Assembly: GCF_014195485.1 (NCBI RefSeq)
Contig: NZ_JACIBU010000001.1
Span: 1,116,001 to 1,180,000, forward strand
DNA: 64,000 nucleotides
From: Modestobacter versicolor
GTDB taxonomy: Bacteria > Actinomycetota > Actinomycetes > Mycobacteriales > Geodermatophilaceae
Reading direction: 5' to 3'
A program made the translations under genes and the position numbers. Each line of letters starts with the position of its first letter. The stretch's first letter is position 1. The notes beneath the pieces are model-generated. The model saw only the letters and a program-made list of their open reading frames with translations. It did not search any database and was not told where the DNA came from. Positions 5,701 through 47,400 of the stretch are shown here, one piece after another.

Positions 5701-8226
5701 TCAGACCGTCGGGGGCTGCTGCTCCTCGTCGGACGCCGGCTCCTGGAACAGCCGGGTGTGGTCCCGCTCGACCGGCGGTGGGACCTCCCCGAGCAGCTCG
5801 GCGACCTCGGCCTCGATGTCGTCTTCGGTGACCTCGCCGCCGACCTCGTCGGACAGCTCGCGCCCGAGGTCGTCGTCGTCGACGGTCTCCTCGGCCCCCT
5901 CGTCCCCGTCGGTGTCGCCGTCGGCGTCGGTGCCCGGCGCGAGGTCGGTGAGGTCCTCGTCGTCCTGGTCGTCGTCCTCGTCGTCGTCCGTGGAGAAGTA
6001 CTCCGAGACGCCGGTCAGGTCGTCGGGGTCTGCCGCGGCGATCGCCGAGTACCACTCGTGGGCGAGCTCCGCCTCGCCGCGGGCGGAGAGCAGGTCGGCG
6101 TAGGCGGTGGCCAGCCGCAGGTGCCCGAGGTCGGGCTGCCCGAGGCCGGCCGGGGTGGGCCGGCCGCCGAGCGCCCCCTCGAGGACGAGCGCGGCAGCGG
6201 CGCCCTCGCCCAGGTCCTGGCGGGCACCGGCCTCGACCAGGCGGAGCTCGACCAGCTCCTCCTCGTCCGGGTGCGCCGCGAGCGCCTCCTGCACCAGCCG
6301 GAGGGCGTTCTCCGGCCGCCCGAGGGCGCGCTCGCAGTCGGCCAGGACGGCCCGGTAGCTCTCGTCGCCGCTCATCCGCGCGTAGGCGCGGAGCTCGCGG
6401 GCGGCCTCGGCGAAGTCGCCGGCGTGGTACGCGGCGACACCGACGGCCTCGCGGACGGGGGCGAGCCGGGAGGCGCGGTCACGGGCGGCCCGGGCGTGCT
6501 CGAGCGCGAGCTCCGGGTCCTCCTCGATCAGGCCGCCGGCCGCGACGAGGTGCCTGCCCACGGCGTCGGCGTTGCGCGGGTCGAGACCGCGCAGCGCGGA
6601 GCGCACCGAGACGTCGAGCTCGCGGGCGTCCGCCCAGTCCGGCAGGGCCGGTCCGGGTGCCCGGCGCGGGGCCGAGTCCTCCCGGTCGGCAGGTCGGCCT
6701 GCCGGACGGCGGTCCTGCCAGGCGGGGCGGTCGGCGTCGGAGCCGGCGGGGCCACCGGCGCGCTGCGGACGGCGGTCCTGCCAGGCCGGACGGTCCGCAC
6801 CGGACCGGTCACCCTGCGGGCGGTCGCGCTGGGGGCGGTCGCCGCCGGGGCTGCGGTCCTGCCACTCACGACGGGGCCCACCCGAGGACTGCGGGCGGTC
6901 CCCACCGGGACGACGGTCCTGCCAGGCCGGACGGTCCGCTCCGGCGCGGTCACCCTGCTGCGCCCGCTGCCCACCGGGGGCGCGGTCCTGCCAGGCCGGA
7001 CGATCGCCCTGCTGGCGGCCACCCGAGGACTGCGGACGGCCGGCACCGGGGCTGCGGTCCTGCCACTCACGGCGCGGGCCACCCGAGGACTGGGGACGGT
7101 CCCCACCCGGGCGACGGTCCTGCCATGCCGGACGGTCACCCTGCGGGCGGCCACCGGAGGACTGCGGCCGGCCACCACCGGGGCTGCGGTCCTGCCACTC
7201 ACGACGGGGCCCACCCGAGGACTGCGGACGCCCACCACCGGGGCTGCGGTCCGGCCACTCACGACGGGGCCCACCCGAGGAAGGCGGACGGTCGCCGCCG
7301 GGGCGACGGTCCTGCCAGGCCGGCCGGTCACCCTGCGGGCGGCCACCGGAGGACTGCGGCCGGCCACCACCGGGGCTGCGGTCCTGCCACTCACGGCGCG
7401 GGCCACCCGAGGACTGCGGACGGTCCCCACCGGGCCGGCGGTCCTGCCAGGCCGGCCGGTCACCCTGCGGGCGGCCACCGGAGGACTGCGGACGCCCACC
7501 ACCGGGGCTGCGGTCCTGCCACTCACGGCGCGGGCCACCCGAGGACTGCGGACGGTCCCCACCGGGCCGGCGGTCCTGCCAGGCCGGCCGGTCACCCTGC
7601 GGGCGGCCACCGGAGGACTGCGGACGCCCACCACCGGGGCTGCGGTCCTGCCACTCACGGCGCGGGCCACCCGAGGACTGCGGACGGTCCCCACCGGGCC
7701 GGCGGTCCTGCCAGGCGGGACGGTCACCCTGCGGGCGGCCACCGGAGGACTGCGGACGCCCACCACCGGGGCTGCGGTCCTGCCACTCACGGCGCGGGCC
7801 ACCCGAGGACTGCGGACGGTCCCCGCCGGGCCGGCGGTCCTGCCAGGCCGGACGATCCCCCTGCGGGCGGCCACCCGACGACTGCGGTCGGCCACCCTGC
7901 GCACGCTCGCCGCCCTGCGGACGGCCACGCTGCGGACGGTCGCCACCCTGCGGTCGGTCACGCTGCGGGCGCTCGCCAGCCGGGCGGCGCCCCCACTCAC
8001 CGCCGGCGGCACCACCACGGGCGCGGTAAGCATCGTCACGTGACGACCCGCCACGGGAGGGTGCGCCCTCGTTCCCCTCCACCGGGCGGGATCCGCGGTG
8101 GCCGGCCGGGCGCTGCGGACGGCCGCCGGCACCCTGGCGGGAACCGCCGCCGCTCGTGCCACGGGGACCGCCGCCGCTGCCGCGGCCTCCGGCTGAGCCA
8201 CCCGGCCCACGTCGAGGAGAAGTCAT
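5701..8226 (-). CDS. Large repeat-rich TPR protein with basic disordered N-terminus and acidic tail
   Basis: An 841-aa protein in three parts. Residues 1 to about 520 are a Gly/Arg/Pro/Gln-rich, highly basic, disordered region. It contains at least five near-perfect 44-aa tandem repeats with core elements RPQSSGG, GDRPAWQDRRPGG and RREWQDRSPGG, plus partial copies. About residues 530-740 form an alpha-helical TPR domain (from LPDWADARELDVSVRSALRG on). The last ~100 residues are strongly acidic (DDDEDDDQDDED and following). A TPR protein at this place near tyrS is conserved in actinobacteria; the repeat extension is the variable part. The start is ATG at 8226, and an in-frame GTG at 8208+36 is a weak alternative. 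Function is unknown; the charge layout suggests nucleic-acid or assembly scaffolding (inference). Confidence 0.85.
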   Translation of the reverse strand: MTSPRRGPGGSAGGRGSGGGPRGTSGGGSRQGAGGRPQRPAGHRGSRPVEGNEGAPSRGGSSRDDAYRARGGAAGGEWGRRPAGERPQRDRPQGGDRPQRGRPQGGERAQGGRPQSSGGRPQGDRPAWQDRRPGGDRPQSSGGPRREWQDRSPGGGRPQSSGGRPQGDRPAWQDRRPGGDRPQSSGGPRREWQDRSPGGGRPQSSGGRPQGDRPAWQDRRPGGDRPQSSGGPRREWQDRSPGGGRPQSSGGRPQGDRPAWQDRRPGGDRPQSSGGPRREWQDRSPGGGRPQSSGGRPQGDRPAWQDRRPGGDRPPSSGGPRREWPDRSPGGGRPQSSGGPRREWQDRSPGGGRPQSSGGRPQGDRPAWQDRRPGGDRPQSSGGPRREWQDRSPGAGRPQSSGGRQQGDRPAWQDRAPGGQRAQQGDRAGADRPAWQDRRPGGDRPQSSGGPRREWQDRSPGGDRPQRDRPQGDRSGADRPAWQDRRPQRAGGPAGSDADRPAWQDRRPAGRPADREDSAPRRAPGPALPDWADARELDVSVRSALRGLDPRNADAVGRHLVAAGGLIEEDPELALEHARAARDRASRLAPVREAVGVAAYHAGDFAEAARELRAYARMSGDESYRAVLADCERALGRPENALRLVQEALAAHPDEEELVELRLVEAGARQDLGEGAAAALVLEGALGGRPTPAGLGQPDLGHLRLATAYADLLSARGEAELAHEWYSAIAAADPDDLTGVSEYFSTDDDEDDDQDDEDLTDLAPGTDADGDTDGDEGAEETVDDDDLGRELSDEVGGEVTEDDIEAEVAELLGEVPPPVERDHTRLFQEPASDEEQQPPTV
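6690..7900 (-). repeat. 132-bp tandem repeats inside the TPR gene
   Basis: Coding tandem repeats have a 132-bp period (44 codons). The boundaries recur at about 7482, 7614 and 7746. Several units are almost identical at DNA level, followed by shorter 60-bp and degenerate units toward 6700. All copies keep the reading frame. The opposite strand is also open throughout, which creates long spurious antisense reading frames. Confidence 0.9.
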
Positions 8227-8349
8227 GATCTGTTGGTACCTCACTGGTGAACGGCGCACGCCCGGTGGGGGCACCTGAACGGCATCGCATCCACCCTGCC
8301 GAGCTGCGGAGCAGCACGGCACGGTCGGTCGACGAAAGCGGACAAACGC

Positions 8350-8392
8350 ACGAAACGGGAGCCGGAGCGCGATGCTCCGACCCCCGTTTCGT
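8350..8392 (-). terminator. rrn operon terminator
   Basis: On the minus strand downstream of 5S, ACGAAACGGG pairs with CCCGTTTCGT, and an inner CGGAGC/GCTCCG pair closes a short loop. A T-containing tract (GCGTTTGTCC) follows. The position right after the 5S gene fits termination of the rrn operon. Confidence 0.75.
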
Positions 8393-8400
8393 TGAGTTAT

Positions 8401-8519
8401 GTCCGGCGGCGTCCTACTCTCCCACCCAGTCCCCCGGGCAGTACCATCGGCGCTGAAAGGCTTAGCTTCCGGGTTCGGAATGAGACCGGGCGTTTCCCTT
8501 TCGCCATGACCGCCGTAAC
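8401..8519 (-). rRNA. rrf: 5S ribosomal RNA
   Basis: The minus strand begins GTTACGGCGGTCATGGCGAA and ends with GTAGGACGCCGCCGGAC. It contains the conserved internal CCGAACCCGGAAGCTAAGCC. Length is about 119 nt, as expected. Ends are placed by homology and may be off by 1-3 nt. Confidence 0.95.
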
Positions 8520-8657
8520 ACTGTGAACTTGTCCCCCACCCCACACCCGACCCACGCGACCAGAACACAAAGCTCTGGTGGTGAATCAGGGGGGTGGGTT
8601 CCGTACGTTCAGAACCACACAGTGGACGCGAGACAAACACATAGCTGGATGATGTGT
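8520..8657 (-). other. 23S-5S spacer carrying the downstream arm of the 23S processing stem
   Basis: A spacer of 138 bp with no tRNA. It contains, at 8618-8632, the 15-nt arm that is fully complementary to 11913-11927 in the 16S-23S spacer. Beyond it GTACGG (at about 8602-8607 in complement) pairs again with CCGTAC upstream of 23S. These arms would form the RNase III-type processing stem that brackets pre-23S rRNA. Confidence 0.7.
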
Positions 8658-13845
<5,188 letters not shown>

Positions 13846-14086
13846 TGATTTGATCACAGGCTGAGACCGAGAGTTGGCACTCTCGTTCAATCAACCAAAG
13901 GAACCCAACGACATCCAAAGGACGCCGAATGGGGATTTGTTACTTGGCACTGACTTTCGGCACGCTGTTGAGTTCTCAAGGAGCGGACGCGCGAGGAACC
14001 AGACCCTCTCAGGCCTTCGTCCACGGCTTGTGTTGTCCTGCTCGGCGCCCGGTCCCGGCCTCGCGGTCGTTCCCGGCGCAGAGAGA
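13846..14086 (-). other. rrn leader region
   Basis: This is the transcribed leader between the rrn promoter and 16S, without any gene I can support. It holds a boxA-like element, TTGAGAACTCAACAGCGTGC on the minus strand (about 13960-13980), whose core is shared with the 16S-23S spacer. No tRNA is seen. Confidence 0.6.
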
Positions 14087-14115
14087 AAGTTACGTGGCTG
14101 TCGGAGCCGTGTCAA
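14087..14115 (-). promoter_or_regulatory. rrn promoter
   Basis: On the minus strand a consensus -35 TTGACA (14115-14110) is separated by exactly 17 bp from a -10-like TAACTT (14092-14087). It lies about 240 nt upstream of the 16S 5' end and about 77 bp downstream of the tyrS stop. This is the best sigma-70/HrdB-type promoter in the window. Confidence 0.75.
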
Positions 14116-14191
14116 ACCCGGGGGTCGGTGACGCGCGCCACCTGGACGGAACGTCCCCGTCACCTGGCGTTCACACGCGACGAGGCCCTGC

Positions 14192-15490
14192 TCAGGCGGC
14201 CGGTCCGGCCCCCGGCCGGTGCACGCCGGCGACCGAGCGCTTGCCCCGGCGGAGCGCCAACCACCCACCGGGCAGCCAGTCCGACTCCGCCGGCACGGCC
14301 TCGGGGTCGGTGACCCGCTCGTTGTTCAGGTAGGCGCCGCCCTCCTTCACCGTGCGCCGCGCCTCGGACAGGCTGGACACGAGCCCGGTCCGCTGCAGCA
14401 GCACCGCCACGGTGGGGGTCTCCTCCCCCGCTGCCAGCTCGGTGCCACCGGCCTCGCCCAGCGCGGCGGTGAGCGTCCGCGGCCCGAGCGTGGAGAGCTC
14501 CTCCCGACCGAACAGGGCCCGCCCGGCCGCCTCGGCCTGGGCCAGCTCCTCGGCGCCGTGCACCAGCCGGGTGAGCTCCTCGGCGAGCGCCCGCTGCGGT
14601 GCCCGGGACGCCGGCCGCTCGAGGGACTCCGCGATCAGCGCCTCGACCTCCTCGGCCGGCCGCTCGGAGAACAGCGGCAGCCAGGCCCGTGCGTCGACGT
14701 CGTCGATGGTGAGCCAGTACTGGAAGAAGGCGTAGGGGCTCGTCAGCTCCGGGTCCAGCCAGACCGTCGCCCCCTCGGTCTTGCCGATCTTCTTGCCGTC
14801 CGCGGTGGTGATCAGCGGGGTGGACAGCGCGTGGGTGCCCGCGCCCTCGGTGCGGCGGACCAGGTCGACGCCGGCGGTGATGTTCCCCCACTGGTCGGAG
14901 CCACCGCTCTGCAGCGTGCAGCCGTGCCGGCGGAAGAGCTCGAGGAAGTCGTTGGCCTGCAGGATCTGGTAGCTGAACTCGGTGTAGCTGATCCCGGCGT
15001 CGCTGTTGAGCCGCGCGGACACCGCCTCCTTGGCCAGCATCCGGTTGACCCGGAAGTGCTTGCCGAGGTCGCGCAGGAAGTCCAACGCGGACAGCTGCCC
15101 GGTCCAGTCGAGGTTGTCCACGTAGACCGGGGCGCGCAGCCCCTCCTCGGCGGCCGGCCGGTCCAGGAAGGGGGCCACCCGCTGGCGGATCCGGTCCACC
15201 CAGGTCGCCACCGTGGCCGGGTCGTTGAGCACCCGCTCGGAGCTCATCCGCGGGTCGCCGATCAGCCCGGTCGCCCCGCCCACGAGCACGATCGGCTGGT
15301 GACCGGCCCGCTGCAGCGCCCGGAGCACCATGAACTGGATCAGGTGGCCGACGTGCAGGCTCTGCGCCGTCGGGTCGAAGCCGCAGTAGTAGGTCACCGG
15401 CCCCTCGGCGAGGTGGGCCCGCAGCGCCTCCTCGTCGGTGCTCTGGGCGATCAGCCCACGGCGGTGCAGCTCGTCGATCACGTCAGTCAC
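14192..15490 (-). CDS. tyrS: Tyrosyl-tRNA synthetase
   Basis: A 432-aa class I aminoacyl-tRNA synthetase that charges tRNA-Tyr. The Rossmann ATP-binding HIGH-type motif is HVGH at residues 46-49. The tyrosine site includes YCGFDPTAQSLHVGH and YQILQANDF. The KMSKS-type loop is KIGKT near residue 232, and an S4-like RNA-binding domain ends the protein. The GTG start at 15490 overlaps the mpg stop by 8 bp, and no strong ribosome binding site is seen, suggesting coupled translation. tyrS following mpg is conserved in mycobacteria. Confidence 0.97.
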   Translation of the reverse strand: MTDVIDELHRRGLIAQSTDEEALRAHLAEGPVTYYCGFDPTAQSLHVGHLIQFMVLRALQRAGHQPIVLVGGATGLIGDPRMSSERVLNDPATVATWVDRIRQRVAPFLDRPAAEEGLRAPVYVDNLDWTGQLSALDFLRDLGKHFRVNRMLAKEAVSARLNSDAGISYTEFSYQILQANDFLELFRRHGCTLQSGGSDQWGNITAGVDLVRRTEGAGTHALSTPLITTADGKKIGKTEGATVWLDPELTSPYAFFQYWLTIDDVDARAWLPLFSERPAEEVEALIAESLERPASRAPQRALAEELTRLVHGAEELAQAEAAGRALFGREELSTLGPRTLTAALGEAGGTELAAGEETPTVAVLLQRTGLVSSLSEARRTVKEGGAYLNNERVTDPEAVPAESDWLPGGWLALRRGKRSVAGVHRPGAGPAA

Positions 15491-16136
15491 GGCGTTGATC
15501 CTGCCTGGCGGCCCCGCGGCGGGGCTTCCCGCCCGCCCGGAACACGCTCACCGACGGCGCACCGGTCTCCCAGAATCGCCAGGGCAGCTCGGTCGCGACG
15601 CTGATCCCGACCCGCGGGCCGGCGGAGACCGCAGCCGGCGCCGGGCCCCGGTGCAGCCGCACGGCGGACGCCGGGTCGAGCAGGTCCGCGCCGCGGTCGT
15701 CCGGGCCGATGGCCAGCGCCTGGGTGAGCCGGGCCGGCCCGCGGGCCAGGTCGCGGGCCACCCGGGCGGCGGGCCGCCGCGACCGGGCCAGCGGCTCCCC
15801 CACCACCACCTCGCCGGCCCGCATCAGCACGGCCGACCCGCGACCGGCCGGGCCGACCACCACGTTGGCGCACCAGTGCACGCCGTAGCTGAAGTAGACG
15901 TAGAGCAGCCCGGGCGGGCCGAACATGATCTCCGCCCGCGGGGTGGGACCGCGGTGGGCGTGCGACGCCGGGTCCTCCCCCTGGCCCGAGTAGGCCTCGA
16001 CCTCGGTCAGCCGCAGCGCGACCCGCCCCTCGGGCCGGTCGGTGACCACCCAGCAGCCCAGCAGCCGGGCGGCCACCTCGGCGACCGGCCCGAGCAGGTC
16101 CTCGGCCCGCAGCAGCGGACCGGGCTCGCCGGTCAC
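15483..16136 (-). CDS. mpg: 3-methyladenine DNA glycosylase (Mpg/AAG family)
   Basis: A 217-aa base-excision repair enzyme that removes alkylated purines. Family features are LLGCWVV near the N-terminus, LTEVEAYSGQGEDPASHAHRG with the catalytic glutamate region, and YFSYGVHWCANVV. The start is GTG at 16136, 5 bp after the argH stop. The gene thus trails the arginine operon and overlaps tyrS by 8 bp. Its length fits the bacterial family. Confidence 0.95.
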   Translation of the reverse strand: MTGEPGPLLRAEDLLGPVAEVAARLLGCWVVTDRPEGRVALRLTEVEAYSGQGEDPASHAHRGPTPRAEIMFGPPGLLYVYFSYGVHWCANVVVGPAGRGSAVLMRAGEVVVGEPLARSRRPAARVARDLARGPARLTQALAIGPDDRGADLLDPASAVRLHRGPAPAAVSAGPRVGISVATELPWRFWETGAPSVSVFRAGGKPRRGAARQDQRRD

Positions 16137-41777: not shown

Positions 41778-42572
41778 GTGAGGGACTCCATCGGCGACGA
41801 GCGCGCGCCCGGCCGGGACCTGGTGGAGACCGGGGAGCTGGTCGCCGGGTCGATGAGCCGTGCGGTCGCCGGCCTGCTGTTCGCGCCGGAGTCGAGCCCG
41901 CTGCGGCTCGACGACCGGCTCGCCTCCTGCCTGCGCGACGCCGCGACCACCGCCGCCGAGCTGCCGCTGACCTGGGAGCGCGCCCGGGCTGGTGCGGTGC
42001 TGGCCTTCGCCGCGGAGCTGTCGGTCACCCGCGCCCACCAGGGCCGCGCCGTGCGCACCGACGGGTTCTTCAGCGTCAGCACCGCCGCCCGGTCGGCGGC
42101 CGAGCGGCTGGTCGAGGACGTCGTCCAGGCCGCCCGGCAGACCACCGAGGAACGACGGGTGCGGCACCTGGGCTACCTGCTGGCCGAGGTCGTCGTCTCC
42201 CCCGACATCGACGTGGCGCTGGCCTCCCGCGCGCTGCAGCTCGCCGAGTCCTGCAGCTGGCGCCAGCTGGTCTACCTGGCCGCGGTCGGCCGGCGGGACC
42301 GTTCCCCGCTGCCGATGGGCTCGCTGGAGGAGGAGGCGCGGGGCTGGCGGGCCTGGGGCGCCCGCGAGGACGTCGCCGACCTGCAGCGCGCCGACCTGCT
42401 CGACCCGCCGCTGGCACCGGCCCGCCCGGGGCTGCGGCCCGAGCTGCGCCCGGCCGACCTGCGGCTCACCCGCCGCGGGGTGCTGGTGCACCGGCTGCTG
42501 GCGCTGGACTTCGTCCGCGAGGACGACGTCCAGGCCGCGCTGACCGACCTGGACCTCCCGCCCGCCTCGTGA
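41778..42572 (+). CDS. Uncharacterised protein
   Basis: A 264-aa protein that I do not recognise. It is mostly predicted helical, Ala/Leu/Arg-rich, without signal peptide or membrane helices. A conserved-looking central part is VRHLGYLLAEVVVSPDIDVALASRALQLAESCSWRQLVYLAAVGRR-like. The GTG at 41778 is the first in-frame start, and an ATG at 41853 is an alternative. It is divergent from narK and followed by the membrane protein of the sigma cluster. Confidence 0.6.
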   Translation: MRDSIGDERAPGRDLVETGELVAGSMSRAVAGLLFAPESSPLRLDDRLASCLRDAATTAAELPLTWERARAGAVLAFAAELSVTRAHQGRAVRTDGFFSVSTAARSAAERLVEDVVQAARQTTEERRVRHLGYLLAEVVVSPDIDVALASRALQLAESCSWRQLVYLAAVGRRDRSPLPMGSLEEEARGWRAWGAREDVADLQRADLLDPPLAPARPGLRPELRPADLRLTRRGVLVHRLLALDFVREDDVQAALTDLDLPPAS

Positions 42573-42621: not shown

Positions 42622-44439
42622 ATGAGCCGCGACGACGAGCCGGGTCCCGACCCGGCGGTCGACGCCGTCACCGGGCTGCTCCCCCGGCTCGGGCCGCTCG
42701 CCGTGCTGCTCACCGACGACCGGGCCGACGCCGTCCGGCTGCTGTCCGCGGCGCTGGCCACCCCCAGCGCGCTGGACGACGCGGCGACGGCCCGCCGGGC
42801 GCTGACCGCTCCCCGGGACCGGCCCCGCTGGGCCGCCGAGCAGGTGGTCGGGACGCTCGCGCCGGTCGTCCCGGCCGACGAGGACCCGGTGCTGGCCGCG
42901 GCGCTGCGGTCGCTGCCCGCCGGCGTCCGGGCGGCCGCCGTGCTGCGGCTGGTGGACGGCCCGCCCGCCGGGGACGACGACGCCGTCGCCGCGCTCGCCG
43001 CGGCCGTGGCCCGCGGCGACGACGAGCAGCGCCGCGAGCGCGACCGGGCGACGGCGGCGTTCCGGGCCCCGGGGGCGGCAGCCGGTCCCGCGGCGCCGGC
43101 CGTGCCGCTCGCCGACCGGCTCGCCCGGCTGGCCGCCGGCCGTCCCCTCCCGCCGACCGCCGCCGCGGAGGTCGCCGCGGCGGTCGCTGCCGCCCGGCGG
43201 GGCCGGCGCCGCCGCCGGTACCGGCTGGTGGGTGCCGCCGCGCTGGTCGCCGTCCTGCTCGCCCTGGTCCCGCTGCTGCCGCAGCCCGGACCGCCGGCCC
43301 CGGTCACCGACGTCTACGCCGGGAGCCCGCGCGGCTCGTTGGCCGGCGACGAGGAGTTCCTGCGGGAGATGCGCGCGCAGAGCTGGTCGGGCACCGACCT
43401 GGCCACCACCTCGCCGCCGGCCACCCGCCGGGTGGTGTTCGCCGGCGACGTGCCCGGCGGCCGGTGGGCGCTCGTGGTGACCGGGGAGGGGGCCAACCGG
43501 GCGGCCGCCTGGTTCTCCGGCCCGGAGGGGGCCCAGGCCGGGCGGCTCCGGCTGCGGTCGGTGGCCCTGGACCCGGACCCGGCGCTCCCGGTGTCGCTGG
43601 CCGACCCGTCGACCGGGGCGCTGGTCGTGGTCGGCGCCCCGGGCGACACCGTGGCGGTGTCCGAGCGGCCGGAGGTGACGGCCGACGGTTCCCTGGCGCG
43701 GGAGACCACCGACGTCCCCGCCCCCGACGGGGTGGCCGTCGCCGCGCTCACGCCGCTCCCGGGTGCCCCGCAGAGCGCCGTCCGGGTCGAGGTGGAGCGG
43801 GACGGTCGCCGGGTCGACGTCGCCCCGCCGGTGTTGCTCACCCCCGACGGTGCCGACCGCGCGGTGCTGCCCGAGGGCACCCGGCTGCGGCCGGCACCGC
43901 GACCGGCGGTCGGCGACTCCGCCGTGGCCGTCCGGCTCGCCACGGTGCTCGGCCAGCTGGGGCAGTCCCCGGCCACCGCGCAGGTCACCACCCTGTGGGC
44001 CGGCGACCTCCCCGGCCCCAACGACCAGCCGACCCGGCTCACCGTCGTCGCCCTCCCCCAGCCCTCGGGCGCCGTCGTGGTCACCGCTCCCTACGGCTAC
44101 GCCGCCGACCTGTCCGGCCGGTCGGGCAGCTCGTGGTGCGGCACCGGGGTGCTGCCCGCCGGCGAGCCGCTGGACCAGCGGGTCGTCGCGGTGCAGTGCG
44201 ACCTCAGCGACGGCCGGGTGACCCGGGAGATCAGCCGGTTCCTCGTCGTCCTCGCCCCGCCGACGGCGACCTCGGTGCAGCTGCTCGACGCCGGCGGGGT
44301 GCTGCTGAGCGCGCACCCGATGGCCGACGGCGTCGCGGTCGTCCGGTCACCGGGCGAGGTCGCGATGGTGACGGTCACCGGTGCCGACGGCGGGACGGCG
44401 ATGGCGGCCCCGCTGGTGGACACCCCGCTGGACGGCTGA
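42622..44439 (+). CDS. Chimeric membrane protein: decayed SigE-like N-terminus plus ectodomain
   Basis: A 605-aa protein. Residues ~20-115 align by eye with the SigE-family factor encoded downstream (PLAVLLTDDR against RLAVLLTGDR; EQVV; AALRSLPAGVRAAAVLR against AALRSLPPRMRTAVVLR). The DNA-binding region 4 helix is missing. A basic stretch ([11 protein letters not shown]) and a single membrane helix (about residues 200-220) follow. The remaining ~380 residues form an outside domain paralogous to the protein at 45044 (AGDVPGGRWALV, TGALVVVGAPGDTVAVS, SWCGTGVLPAGEPL). It is probably a sensor or anti-sigma-like regulator, but its function is unproven. The ATG at 42622 follows AGGATCAGGGC. Confidence 0.8.
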   Translation: MSRDDEPGPDPAVDAVTGLLPRLGPLAVLLTDDRADAVRLLSAALATPSALDDAATARRALTAPRDRPRWAAEQVVGTLAPVVPADEDPVLAAALRSLPAGVRAAAVLRLVDGPPAGDDDAVAALAAAVARGDDEQRRERDRATAAFRAPGAAAGPAAPAVPLADRLARLAAGRPLPPTAAAEVAAAVAAARRGRRRRRYRLVGAAALVAVLLALVPLLPQPGPPAPVTDVYAGSPRGSLAGDEEFLREMRAQSWSGTDLATTSPPATRRVVFAGDVPGGRWALVVTGEGANRAAAWFSGPEGAQAGRLRLRSVALDPDPALPVSLADPSTGALVVVGAPGDTVAVSERPEVTADGSLARETTDVPAPDGVAVAALTPLPGAPQSAVRVEVERDGRRVDVAPPVLLTPDGADRAVLPEGTRLRPAPRPAVGDSAVAVRLATVLGQLGQSPATAQVTTLWAGDLPGPNDQPTRLTVVALPQPSGAVVVTAPYGYAADLSGRSGSSWCGTGVLPAGEPLDQRVVAVQCDLSDGRVTREISRFLVVLAPPTATSVQLLDAGGVLLSAHPMADGVAVVRSPGEVAMVTVTGADGGTAMAAPLVDTPLDG

Positions 44440-44537
44440 GCCGGGTGATCGTGACCGGTTCGTGACCGGGGCTGTGGGTCTGCTGGGCGTCCCACCTCGT
44501 GTAAGAGGTGACGGACGGCGAGAGGGGACCCGCGGGC

Positions 44538-45044
44538 GTGGGCACTGGGGACGGCAGCAGCTTCGAGGACTTCGTGTCCCGGGAGCAGCCTGCCCTGCTG
44601 CGCCTGGCGGTCCTGCTCACCGGCGACCGCGGACATGCGGAGGACCTGGTGCAGACGGCCCTGCTGAAGACCTACCGGCACTGGGGGCGGATCGCCCGCA
44701 CCGGAGAACCGACCGGCTACGTGCGCCGGGTGCTGGTCACCACGCACACCAGCTGGCGACGGCGGCTCTGGACGACCGAGCAGGTGGTGGACGCCCTGCC
44801 CGACCGGGTGGACCCCACCGTCGTGCCGGACGGCGACGAGGAGCTGCGCGCCGCGCTCCGGTCGCTGCCGCCGCGGATGCGCACCGCGGTCGTGCTGCGC
44901 TTCTACGCCGACCTCTCGCAGCTGCAGACCGCCCAGCTGATGGGCTGCTCGGAGAGCACCGTGAACACCCAGACCGCCCGCGGGCTGACCCGGCTGCGCA
45001 CGCTGCTCGCCGCCCCGGTGTTCGCCGCGGAGGAGGGATCGTGA
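44538..45044 (+). CDS. SigE-family ECF RNA polymerase sigma factor
   Basis: An extracytoplasmic-function sigma factor of about 168 aa, SigE family. Region 2 is FEDFVSREQPALLRLAVLLTGDRGHAEDLVQTAL-like with YVRRVLVTTHTSWRRR. Region 4 is LRSLPPRMRTAVVLRFYADLSQLQTAQLMGCSESTVNTQTARGLTRL-like with an intact helix-turn-helix. The start was set at GTG 44538 behind GAGAGGGG; GTG 44508 is an upstream alternative without a ribosome binding site. Its TGA shares bases with the ATG of the downstream membrane protein (TGATG), the normal sigma/anti-sigma arrangement. Confidence 0.93.
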   Translation: MGTGDGSSFEDFVSREQPALLRLAVLLTGDRGHAEDLVQTALLKTYRHWGRIARTGEPTGYVRRVLVTTHTSWRRRLWTTEQVVDALPDRVDPTVVPDGDEELRAALRSLPPRMRTAVVLRFYADLSQLQTAQLMGCSESTVNTQTARGLTRLRTLLAAPVFAAEEGS

Positions 45045-46483
45045 TGGACGAGACCGAGCTGCAGCACCGGCTCACCCGGCTGGCCGAGCGGACCGCTCCC
45101 CCGCCGCGCGAGTCGCTCGCCGAGGTCGTCGTCGCCCGGCACCGCAGCCAGGGCCGGCAGGTCGCCGGCATCACCGCGCTGGTGGCCGCCGTGGCCGCCG
45201 TCGTGGTCGCCGTGCCGTCGCTCACCGGCGGGCCGGCCCAGCCGACGGCCGCGACGTCGGCCGACGGGCTGCCCGCACCCGTCGACGACTGGGCCGGCGG
45301 CCTGCTCACCACCCCCACCCGCGGCTCGCTCGCCGCCGACACCGCCTTCGTCGAAGGTGTCCGCCAGCTGTCCTGGCAGAACCCGATGGCCGGGCCCCAC
45401 GACGACGACCCGGACGCGCCGCTGGACACCCGGGTCGTCGTCTACGCCGGCGACGTCGCCGGGGCCCGGTTCGCCCTGGTCGCCGGGGAGAACACCGCCC
45501 AGGTCGATGACGACCCCGCGCTGCAGACCGACGCGGGCGTGCTGAGCGACGTCGCCATCGCCTGGTACCTCGGCCCGGCGGGCGCCGCAGCCGGCGACAT
45601 GACCCTGCAGAGCGTGCCCCGCGGCGTCGACTCCTACGGCGGGCCGGCCGGCTTCTTCGACGGCGCCACCGGGGCGCTGGTCGTGGTCGGCGAGCCGGGT
45701 GACGCGATGACGGTCTCGCCGCGCCCGGTGGTGGCCGCCGACGGCTCGGTGGTGCGCGAGCAGGTGCCGGTCGAGGCGCCGGACGGGATCGGCACGGCGG
45801 TCTTCCCGGCCGGCTCGGTCTCGGGGACGTCCCTCCGCTACACGGTCGTCCGGGGCACCGAGTCCTGGACGTCCAGCCCCAGCTGGACCGGTTCCGACTC
45901 GTCGGCGCCCCAGGTCCCCGTCACCTGGCTGCGCCCCGCGCCGGCACCAGGACCGGTCGACTCGCTGGCCGAGTGGGAGCCGCAGCAGCTGCTCGAGCGC
46001 CTCGGCCTGCTGGCCGAGGAGGTGCAGTTCTCGATGGTCTGGGCCGGGGACGTCCCCTCACCGGTGGAACGCACGTCCCGCGTCAGCCTGCTCGCGGCGA
46101 CCCTCCCGTCCGGAGCGGTGTACCTGCAGTGCTCGCTCGGGCTCGACCTCGGCAACGGCAGCGCCGGCGGGACCTGGTGCGGGAGCGGGATCCGGCCCGC
46201 TGGGACGCCGCTGGCCGAGCAGACCGTCGTCGTCCGCTCCGACGCCACGGACATGTCCAGGAACTCCGACGTCGTCAGCAGCCTGATCGTCGTCGCACCG
46301 CCCACCGCGGTGGCGGCCCGGGCCGTCGACCTCGACGGTGCGGTGCTGGCCGGGTTCCCGCTGGTCGACGGGGTGGCCGTGGTGCCGTTCCCCGAGCGCG
46401 CGGCGACCGTCGAGACGCTGGCCGCGGACGGCACGGTGCTGGAGAGCACCCGCCCGCTGACGATGGCCGACCTCGGTGACTGA
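45044..46483 (+). CDS. Membrane protein paired with the sigma factor (putative anti-sigma)
   Basis: A 479-aa protein. A ~38-residue cytoplasmic N-terminus (LQHRLTRLAERTAPPPRESLAEVV) and one membrane helix (about residues 40-60) lead into a large outside domain. That domain has two conserved cysteines in YLQCSLGLD and GTWCGSGIRP. The arrangement directly after a SigE-family gene, with a TGATG overlap, suggests it controls sigma activity in response to an envelope signal. No zinc-binding HxxxCxxC anti-sigma motif is visible, so the role is inferred from context. Its ectodomain is paralogous to that of the 42622 gene. Confidence 0.75.
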   Translation: MDETELQHRLTRLAERTAPPPRESLAEVVVARHRSQGRQVAGITALVAAVAAVVVAVPSLTGGPAQPTAATSADGLPAPVDDWAGGLLTTPTRGSLAADTAFVEGVRQLSWQNPMAGPHDDDPDAPLDTRVVVYAGDVAGARFALVAGENTAQVDDDPALQTDAGVLSDVAIAWYLGPAGAAAGDMTLQSVPRGVDSYGGPAGFFDGATGALVVVGEPGDAMTVSPRPVVAADGSVVREQVPVEAPDGIGTAVFPAGSVSGTSLRYTVVRGTESWTSSPSWTGSDSSAPQVPVTWLRPAPAPGPVDSLAEWEPQQLLERLGLLAEEVQFSMVWAGDVPSPVERTSRVSLLAATLPSGAVYLQCSLGLDLGNGSAGGTWCGSGIRPAGTPLAEQTVVVRSDATDMSRNSDVVSSLIVVAPPTAVAARAVDLDGAVLAGFPLVDGVAVVPFPERAATVETLAADGTVLESTRPLTMADLGD

Positions 46484-46601
46484 GCTCCCGGCCGAGCCCG
46501 CCTCGGTGATCGCCGCCCGGCAGCTGGCCGAGGAGGCACGGGTCCGGCGCACCGCCGTGCGCCGGTCACCGCTGCGCCCGGCCCCGCACCCCGTGCCGTG
46601 A
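46476..46601 (+). CDS. 41-aa microprotein in the sigma cluster
   Basis: A very short gene overlapping the upstream membrane protein by 8 bp (GTG 46476) and the next gene by GTGA (46598-46601). The product starts VTELPAEPASVIAARQLAEE and continues as an Arg-rich, Pro-rich tail (RVRRTAVRRSPLRPAPHPVP). The tight overlap on both sides suggests it is translated. Function is unknown. Confidence 0.5.
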   Translation: MTELPAEPASVIAARQLAEEARVRRTAVRRSPLRPAPHPVP

Positions 46602-47014
46602 AGGGCCTCCTCGCCTTCGGGGCGGCTCTGGCCGCCGTGCTGGTCGTCCTCACCTGGGGCCACGGCGACGTCGCCTGCCCGGCGATCGGCTGGGGCTCGA
46701 CGGTCCGGGTCGAGCTGGCCGGGGACTGGTCGGGCCAGCCGCTGGGGGTGGTCGAGCTGACGTGCACGCCCGGGTGCGAGCCCCTCACCGTGCTCGACGA
46801 GGTCACCGGCGAGCCGGTGCAGCTCGGGACCGCGCCGGACCCGCTCGTCCGGCCGGTGTTCGGGGAGCAGCCCAGGTCAGCGGTCGCGACGGTGCGCGCG
46901 GCCGACGGGACCGTGCTGGCCCGGGTGGAGTCCGCGCTGCGGTTCGAGCGGGTCGGCGGCACCGAGGAGTGCGGTGGGCCGACGGAGGCGGTCGTGGCGG
47001 TGCCCGCGCCGTGA
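46598..47014 (+). CDS. Small secreted or membrane-anchored Cys-containing protein
   Basis: A 138-aa protein with an N-terminal hydrophobic segment (LLAFGAALAAVLVVLTW), a likely signal anchor or signal peptide, and a beta-rich outside part. Cysteines are found in DVACP, LTCTPGCEP and EECGGP. It is clearly related to the following lipoprotein (shared RVGGTEECGGP block against RVGGSEECGGP). The GTG start overlaps the microprotein stop, and its own stop overlaps the next GTG (GTGA). Confidence 0.75.
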   Translation: MKGLLAFGAALAAVLVVLTWGHGDVACPAIGWGSTVRVELAGDWSGQPLGVVELTCTPGCEPLTVLDEVTGEPVQLGTAPDPLVRPVFGEQPRSAVATVRAADGTVLARVESALRFERVGGTEECGGPTEAVVAVPAP

Positions 47015-47400
47015 GGGTGGTCGTGGCGGTCGCCGTCCTCCTGGCGCTGGCCGGCTGCGAGGACGAGGCGACGGTCTGCCCGGCGTCCGCGGCGGTCGTG
47101 CTGCCGAACGTGGTGGTGCAGCTCGAGCGCTGGCCGGCCGCCGACTCCGCCGTCCTGCAGTGCGCGCCGGCCTGCGTGCCGGGCCTGGCCGGCGACGACC
47201 GCACCGAGCTGACCGTGCCGGTGGTGGACGGCGTCGCCGGGTTCGACGTGTTCGCCAGCCCGGCCACGGTGGCGGTCACCGTGCTCGCTGCCGACGGCAC
47301 GGAGCTGACCCGGCTGGAGACCGAGCTGGACTGGGCGCGGGTCGGCGGCAGCGAGGAGTGCGGCGGTCCGGTGGTGGCGACCGTCGACGTCCCCGGCTGA
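47011..47400 (+). CDS. Small lipoprotein, paralogue of the preceding gene
   Basis: A 129-aa lipoprotein. The signal peptide VRVVVAVAVLLALAGC ends in a lipobox with the modified cysteine in LAGC. The mature part carries TVCPAS, LQCAPACVPG and EECGGP, the same cysteine layout as the upstream protein, implying tandem duplication. It is probably anchored on the outside of the membrane and may work with the ectodomain proteins of this cluster (inference from operon context). It ends 6 bp from the convergent AraC gene. Confidence 0.75.
   Translation: MRVVVAVAVLLALAGCEDEATVCPASAAVVLPNVVVQLERWPAADSAVLQCAPACVPGLAGDDRTELTVPVVDGVAGFDVFASPATVAVTVLAADGTELTRLETELDWARVGGSEECGGPVVATVDVPG

Follow-up and report, generated by a model that had tools for sequence, protein, structure and literature searches.

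What does a membrane protein do with a sigma-factor-like domain that has lost the parts with which sigma factors contact DNA? This question is raised by three consecutive genes, here called A, S and B, on one strand of the genome of Modestobacter versicolor (about 4.59 Mb in 2 contigs). They lie in a stretch of 64,000 nucleotides (contig NZ_JACIBU010000001.1, positions 1,116,001 to 1,180,000), which is referred to as the window and within which all positions are counted. A encodes a membrane protein with a sigma-like inner domain, S a sigma factor of the SigE family and B the membrane protein paired with S (Table 1). The answer favoured here, to which we give a probability of roughly 55%, is that A descends from the S-B pair of this locus by fusion into a single chain and is now a membrane protein whose sigma core is locked and DNA-blind.

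Sigma factor ancestry of the inner domain

The inner domain of A shares descent with the SigE-family sigma factors described by the model TIGR02983, to which S itself belongs (168.5 bits, cut-off 141.55). Residues 14-109 of A align with residues 21-131 of S with 43 identities in 111 positions (47 bits, without composition correction). The Smith-Waterman score of A and S is 113, compared with a mean of 34.2 (standard deviation 5.5) and a maximum of 72 in 5000 shuffles, and it also lies above the maximum of 92 reached in 5000 shuffles within 10-residue blocks. The best score of any other open reading frame (ORF) of at least 100 amino acids overlapping 28-60 kb of the window was 58. The N-terminal likeness to S, noticed in an original prediction made from the DNA letters alone, is thus real and exceeds what Ala/Leu-rich sequence would produce by chance.

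At the level of the family, a profile-profile comparison of 47 A-family N-termini with the sigma factors of the compared loci gave a probability of 98.1 and an E value of 1.2e-13, as the original prediction would have it. Individually, 15 of the 47 members match TIGR02983 at E<=0.01, the best at 7.9e-8. The A protein of the window has no NCBIfam match at E<=1, so that a full-length match to TIGR02983 is absent, and no Pfam family was found in it at E<=1, zinc finger and receiver domain included. When an A-family profile was run against sigma factors, the 11 of this locus obtained 49.2-58.3 bits and 17 other sigma rows 21.8-38.7 bits.

AlphaFold predicts the inner part with confidence as an all-helical domain (predicted local distance difference test, pLDDT, 90.7), and the AlphaFold2 (AF2) model of full-length A reaches a pLDDT of 90.8 and a predicted template modelling score of 0.67. 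The best matches of the inner-part model in the PDB are extracytoplasmic function (ECF) sigma factors; these matches are statistically weak and the agreement in fold is modest. The outer parts of A and B share 172 of 469 residues (37% identity, 234 bits), which agrees with the earlier claim that the two ectodomains are paralogous.

Loss of the DNA-contacting regions

Regions 2.3-2.4 and the helix-turn-helix (HTH) of region 4 are the parts of a sigma factor that contact promoter DNA, and DLVQ is a core-binding motif. A has lost all of these, and with them the -10 and HTH features of a SigE-type promoter-binding protein. Across 47 rows of the A family, regions 2.3-2.4 are 36% gapped and 16% identical and region 4.2 is 35% gapped and 15% identical. 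W83 is gapped in every row and HTH positions 144-148 in 44 of the 47, and in region 2.2 other residues mostly stand in place of DLVQ. Loss of the region-4 helix had been predicted and stands, but the loss is not confined to region 4, as had been supposed.

Three features have been kept: the sigma core, an anti-sigma helix like that of B, in which R166, L167 and A171 are invariant in the 47 rows, and one membrane helix. Since the sigma-like part, the anti-sigma-like part and the membrane helix lie on the same chain, A has the composition of a fused ECF-anti-sigma membrane protein. It shows the deepest loss of sigma features among the fused proteins compared, eight other fused rows retaining more.

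Fused protein or separate pair at the nitrate locus

The nitrate locus was compared in 26 genomes, the window genome among them. It is flanked by what we take to be uroporphyrinogen-III-synthase-like and NarK-like genes on one side and nitrite-reductase-like genes on the other. Pfam was run in the flanks on the major facilitator superfamily transporter and the AraC regulator only, and the AraC gene was not found in some of the compared loci. Most species examined carry at this site either the fused A or the ordinary S-B pair: A stands alone in nine genomes (G006, G007, G008, G010, G011, G013, G020, G082, G094) and S with B in ten (G002, G016, G017, G018, G023, G087, G093, G102, G111, G135). 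All three genes occur together only in the window genome, and six genomes have neither form (G001, G004, G005, G009, G014, G021). Some of these assignments have peculiarities: in G094, A is found beyond the AraC gene; in G011 it is split across two contigs; an additional, frameshifted copy of A is present in G020; and several kilobases without matches lie upstream of S-B in G111. On contig C92 of G011 (L077:7642-8127), an A N-terminus reaching through the anti-sigma-like helix continues in frame into other sequence, presumably of AAA-ATPase type; this joining is either a contig error or a rearrangement.

A is present in two genera (g1, g11). In the seven A-only Modestobacter genomes the best S-like match genome-wide is 45-58% identical, and the S orthologues of G002, G016, G017 and G018 are 78-83% identical to S. 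An S orthologue was not found in these seven of the nine A-only genomes, the genome-wide search having excluded G082 and G094, which belong to another genus. The best match to B in all seven is A itself.

S and B are missing at nine of the ten A loci, and A therefore does not generally serve either of them as decoy or partner. The original prediction had offered a decoy that binds the anti-sigma factor, or a sensor whose inner domain talks to the active sigma factor, and as a general function neither is supported by this distribution. A decoy for polymerase, suggested in addition, is weakened by the replacement of most of the DLVQ motif.

History of the fusion

In the ectodomain tree, which was rooted at the midpoint only, A forms one clade (support 100/100). 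It is nested in a larger group (98/96) together with the 11 B proteins of the locus and some ungrouped rows; the 11 B proteins as a single group are weakly supported (60/54). Both this group and the profile scores of the locus sigma factors bear out the earlier idea that a sigma/anti-sigma pair was fused and lost its DNA-binding parts. The sigma-domain tree has long branches and does not place A inside the locus clade. A and S+B states are intermingled in the locus tree, a pattern that would go back either to repeated gene loss from an ancestral A+S+B array or to exchange of one form for the other at this site.

The ectodomains of a second fused class, C2, form a separate clade (100/100), so that the C2 fusion is probably independent of that of A. 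Other fused proteins (P0077, P0083/P0086, P0090) sit elsewhere in the ectodomain and sigma-domain trees. As C2 and these further proteins are placed apart from A, the fusion of sigma domain and ectodomain seems to have happened more than once.

Class C2 proteins, for example G000 C1:810389-812191 (L031:2354-4417; P0092), are found in many genomes of the genus and are candidate membrane-tethered sigma factors. In P0090, an apparent former membrane-protein start (MTGEDELR) is still readable in the middle of the chain. Adjacent matches to the ectodomain part also occur in runs of three or four (G010:C9:539849-543886, G020:C1:464992-467901, G013:C25:107180-110035); these adjoin a SigE-like match and may be tandem anti-sigma-like arrays.

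A proposed locked sigma core and its alternatives

Under the favoured reading, S and B were joined into one chain, the sigma part of which lost the promoter-contacting regions 2.3-2.4, the region-4 HTH and the core-binding DLVQ, the fold and the B-type anti-sigma helix being retained on the same chain. As in complexes of a sigma factor with its anti-sigma factor, the sigma-like domain may stay packed in folded form against the anti-sigma helix of its chain, and it could provide the inner part of a membrane receptor that has ceased to work as a sigma factor. A further step, which can be put forward only tentatively, is that a transcription switch has here become a receptor, and that A defines a Geodermatophilaceae class of such membrane-anchored pseudo-sigma receptors, with a protein-only output, which replaces the original pair at this locus like an alternative allele.

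The inner domain might instead be a passive remnant, with the function residing in the ectodomain only, for example at the cell wall. The majority of invariant residues do lie in the ectodomain, where C506 and C526 are invariant in 65 aligned rows, and the ectodomain is somewhat more constrained. In six close pairs, the ratio of nonsynonymous to synonymous substitution rates (dN/dS) is 0.32-0.51 for the ectodomain and 0.50-0.60 for the sigma-like part. In two distant pairs the ectodomain gave 0.72 and 0.81, the sigma-like part 0.92 and 0.91, and the segment with the anti-sigma helix and the membrane part 0.76 and 1.08. All these values are rough due to the very high G+C content. The inner domain looks constrained among close relatives, less so than the outer domain. 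A passive remnant is nonetheless unlikely, as the reading frame of the domain is intact in 47 aligned rows, a fold is predicted for it and some of its residues are invariant.

It is similarly doubtful that A works as a sigma mimic like PhyR, in which case an ectodomain signal would open A so that the sigma-like domain captures B or a B-like anti-sigma factor and frees a sigma factor. B is missing at nine of the ten A loci, the anti-sigma-like helix of A itself would compete for the domain, and neither Pfam nor NCBIfam finds a receiver domain in A at E<=1.

A role restricted to the window genome, with A titrating B or forming hetero-oligomers with it through the ectodomains and thereby tuning S, would fit the consecutive order of the three genes on one strand and the 37% identity of the ectodomains. 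We regard it as improbable; it cannot be the general role, since A persists at loci that lack both S and B, and no S orthologue was found in seven of the nine A-only genomes (the other two lay outside the search). It is very unlikely that A still works as a sigma factor that proteolysis frees from the membrane, as for IutY or ECF48/52/53. The layout of sigma-like part, anti-sigma-like part, membrane helix and outer domain is the same, and IutY is described as such a fusion activated by proteolysis (PMC8999054), but the A family has lost regions 2.3-2.4 and the HTH together with most of DLVQ, and the partly intact class C2 is a better candidate.

Relation to known systems

Fused ECF sigma factors with anti-sigma extensions are known, among them IutY/ECF243, ECF48, ECF52 and ECF53. 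Like A, they combine an N-terminal sigma domain with an anti-sigma-like segment, a membrane helix and an outer domain (PMC8999054). A differs from them in having lost the DNA-contacting regions and DLVQ, and in lacking a Pfam zinc finger at E<=1. The A family, seen in some soil actinobacteria, adds a DNA-blind variant to these proteins.

SigE-family (TIGR02983) sigma factors with an adjacent membrane anti-sigma factor resemble A in sequence, predicted fold and locus of origin; unlike in A, the sigma and anti-sigma factors are separate, a promoter-like element of their own is present and regions 2 and 4 are intact. PhyR, which acts as a sigma mimic in the general stress response of alphaproteobacteria, shares with A an ECF-like domain that is not a sigma factor and a comparable fold. 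A is membrane-bound and carries its anti-sigma-like helix in cis, and no receiver domain was found in it, whereas PhyR has one (PMC4598750). The class C2 proteins carry a SigE-like domain on the same kind of ectodomain as A; their ectodomains form a clade of their own and their region 4 is still recognisable (P0092, 34.7 bits, cut-off 25.7).

In the literature searched we came across no report of a fused family with a DNA-blind sigma half that is retained and replaces the original pair. One genus shows the stages together, from the separate pair through a fused form with recognisable region 4 to a fused, DNA-blind form. This series makes it testable what a sigma/anti-sigma module offers once transcription has been removed. 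Database proteins named "hypothetical", and some named "sigma factor-like", may need to be re-read.

The promoter-like element of S

The element upstream of S, TGTGGGTC-N17-CGTGTA, is exact in seven of ten loci viewed, with near forms in G023, G135 and G087. The copy in the window stops 4 nt short of the S start codon and is the sole exact match in the whole genome. Exact matches were found in 29 of 160 loci examined, from 9 genomes, every one with an S gene, and all nine A-only genomes lack an exact match. Sites with one mismatch number 24 in these nine genomes and 30 for a reversed control. In ten stretches before A (for G020 the stretch before the second copy), the best site has 4 mismatches. 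The start codon of A overlaps the stop codon of the upstream gene in G007 and G008, and 49 nt separate the two genes in the window. Judged by sequence, A seems to be co-expressed with the gene before it instead of having an S-type promoter. With no S-type element found ahead of it, A also seems to have left the apparent autoregulatory circuit of S-B.

Features of the locus and neighbouring genes

From its sequence and its homology to A, B appears to have one membrane helix between a short anti-sigma-like segment at the N-terminus (LQHRLTRLAER) and the ectodomain; its ATG overlaps the stop codon of S (TGATG).

Table 1. Features of the A-S-B locus, in window positions
Feature	Position	Strand	Description	Basis
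A	42622..44439	+	605-aa membrane protein: decayed sigma-like domain, anti-sigma-like helix, one membrane helix, beta-rich ectodomain	ORF, AF2
A, sigma-like domain	42643..43056	+	residues 8-145	alignment, profile comparison, predicted fold
A, sigma2-like helices	within 42643..43056	+	residues 11-31, 34-45, 54-62	predicted structure, alignment
A, sigma4.1-like helices		+	residues 89-97, 100-112; helix 119-145 replaces HTH	
A, anti-sigma-like cytoplasmic helix	43108..43137	+	residues 163-172 (LxxRLxRLA)	
A, long helix	43159..43275	+	residues 180-218; second half is the membrane helix	AF2 helix; membrane part inferred from sequence
A, ectodomain	43288..44436	+	residues 223-605, paralogous to B ectodomain	alignment, AF2
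S, promoter-like element	44473..44503	+	TGTGGGTC-N17-CGTGTA	conserved among S loci
S	44508..45044	+	SigE-family ECF sigma factor, 178 aa	Pfam recognises regions 2 and 4
B	45044..46483	+	paired membrane protein, 479 aa	layout from sequence and A homology
Small protein after S-B	46598..47014	+	secreted-looking	sequence; relatives at other loci

The small protein that follows S-B has no Pfam match at E<=0.01. Its relatives occur at five of the ten S+B-only loci and in G004, and at none of the nine A-only loci. A second small secreted-looking protein, encoded within 46762-47400, is similar to it and has a lipoprotein-like LAGC signal in its sequence; both carry GG(T/S)EECGGP near the end. The G004 locus retains only a relative of the first small protein, without the second.

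Upstream of A, the gene at 41853-42572 is conserved, has no Pfam family, and occurs whether a locus holds A, S-B or neither of them. Elsewhere in the window, positions 8001-16000 have a G+C content of 60% and 67%, compared with 73-78% in the rest of the window, and are possibly a foreign segment.
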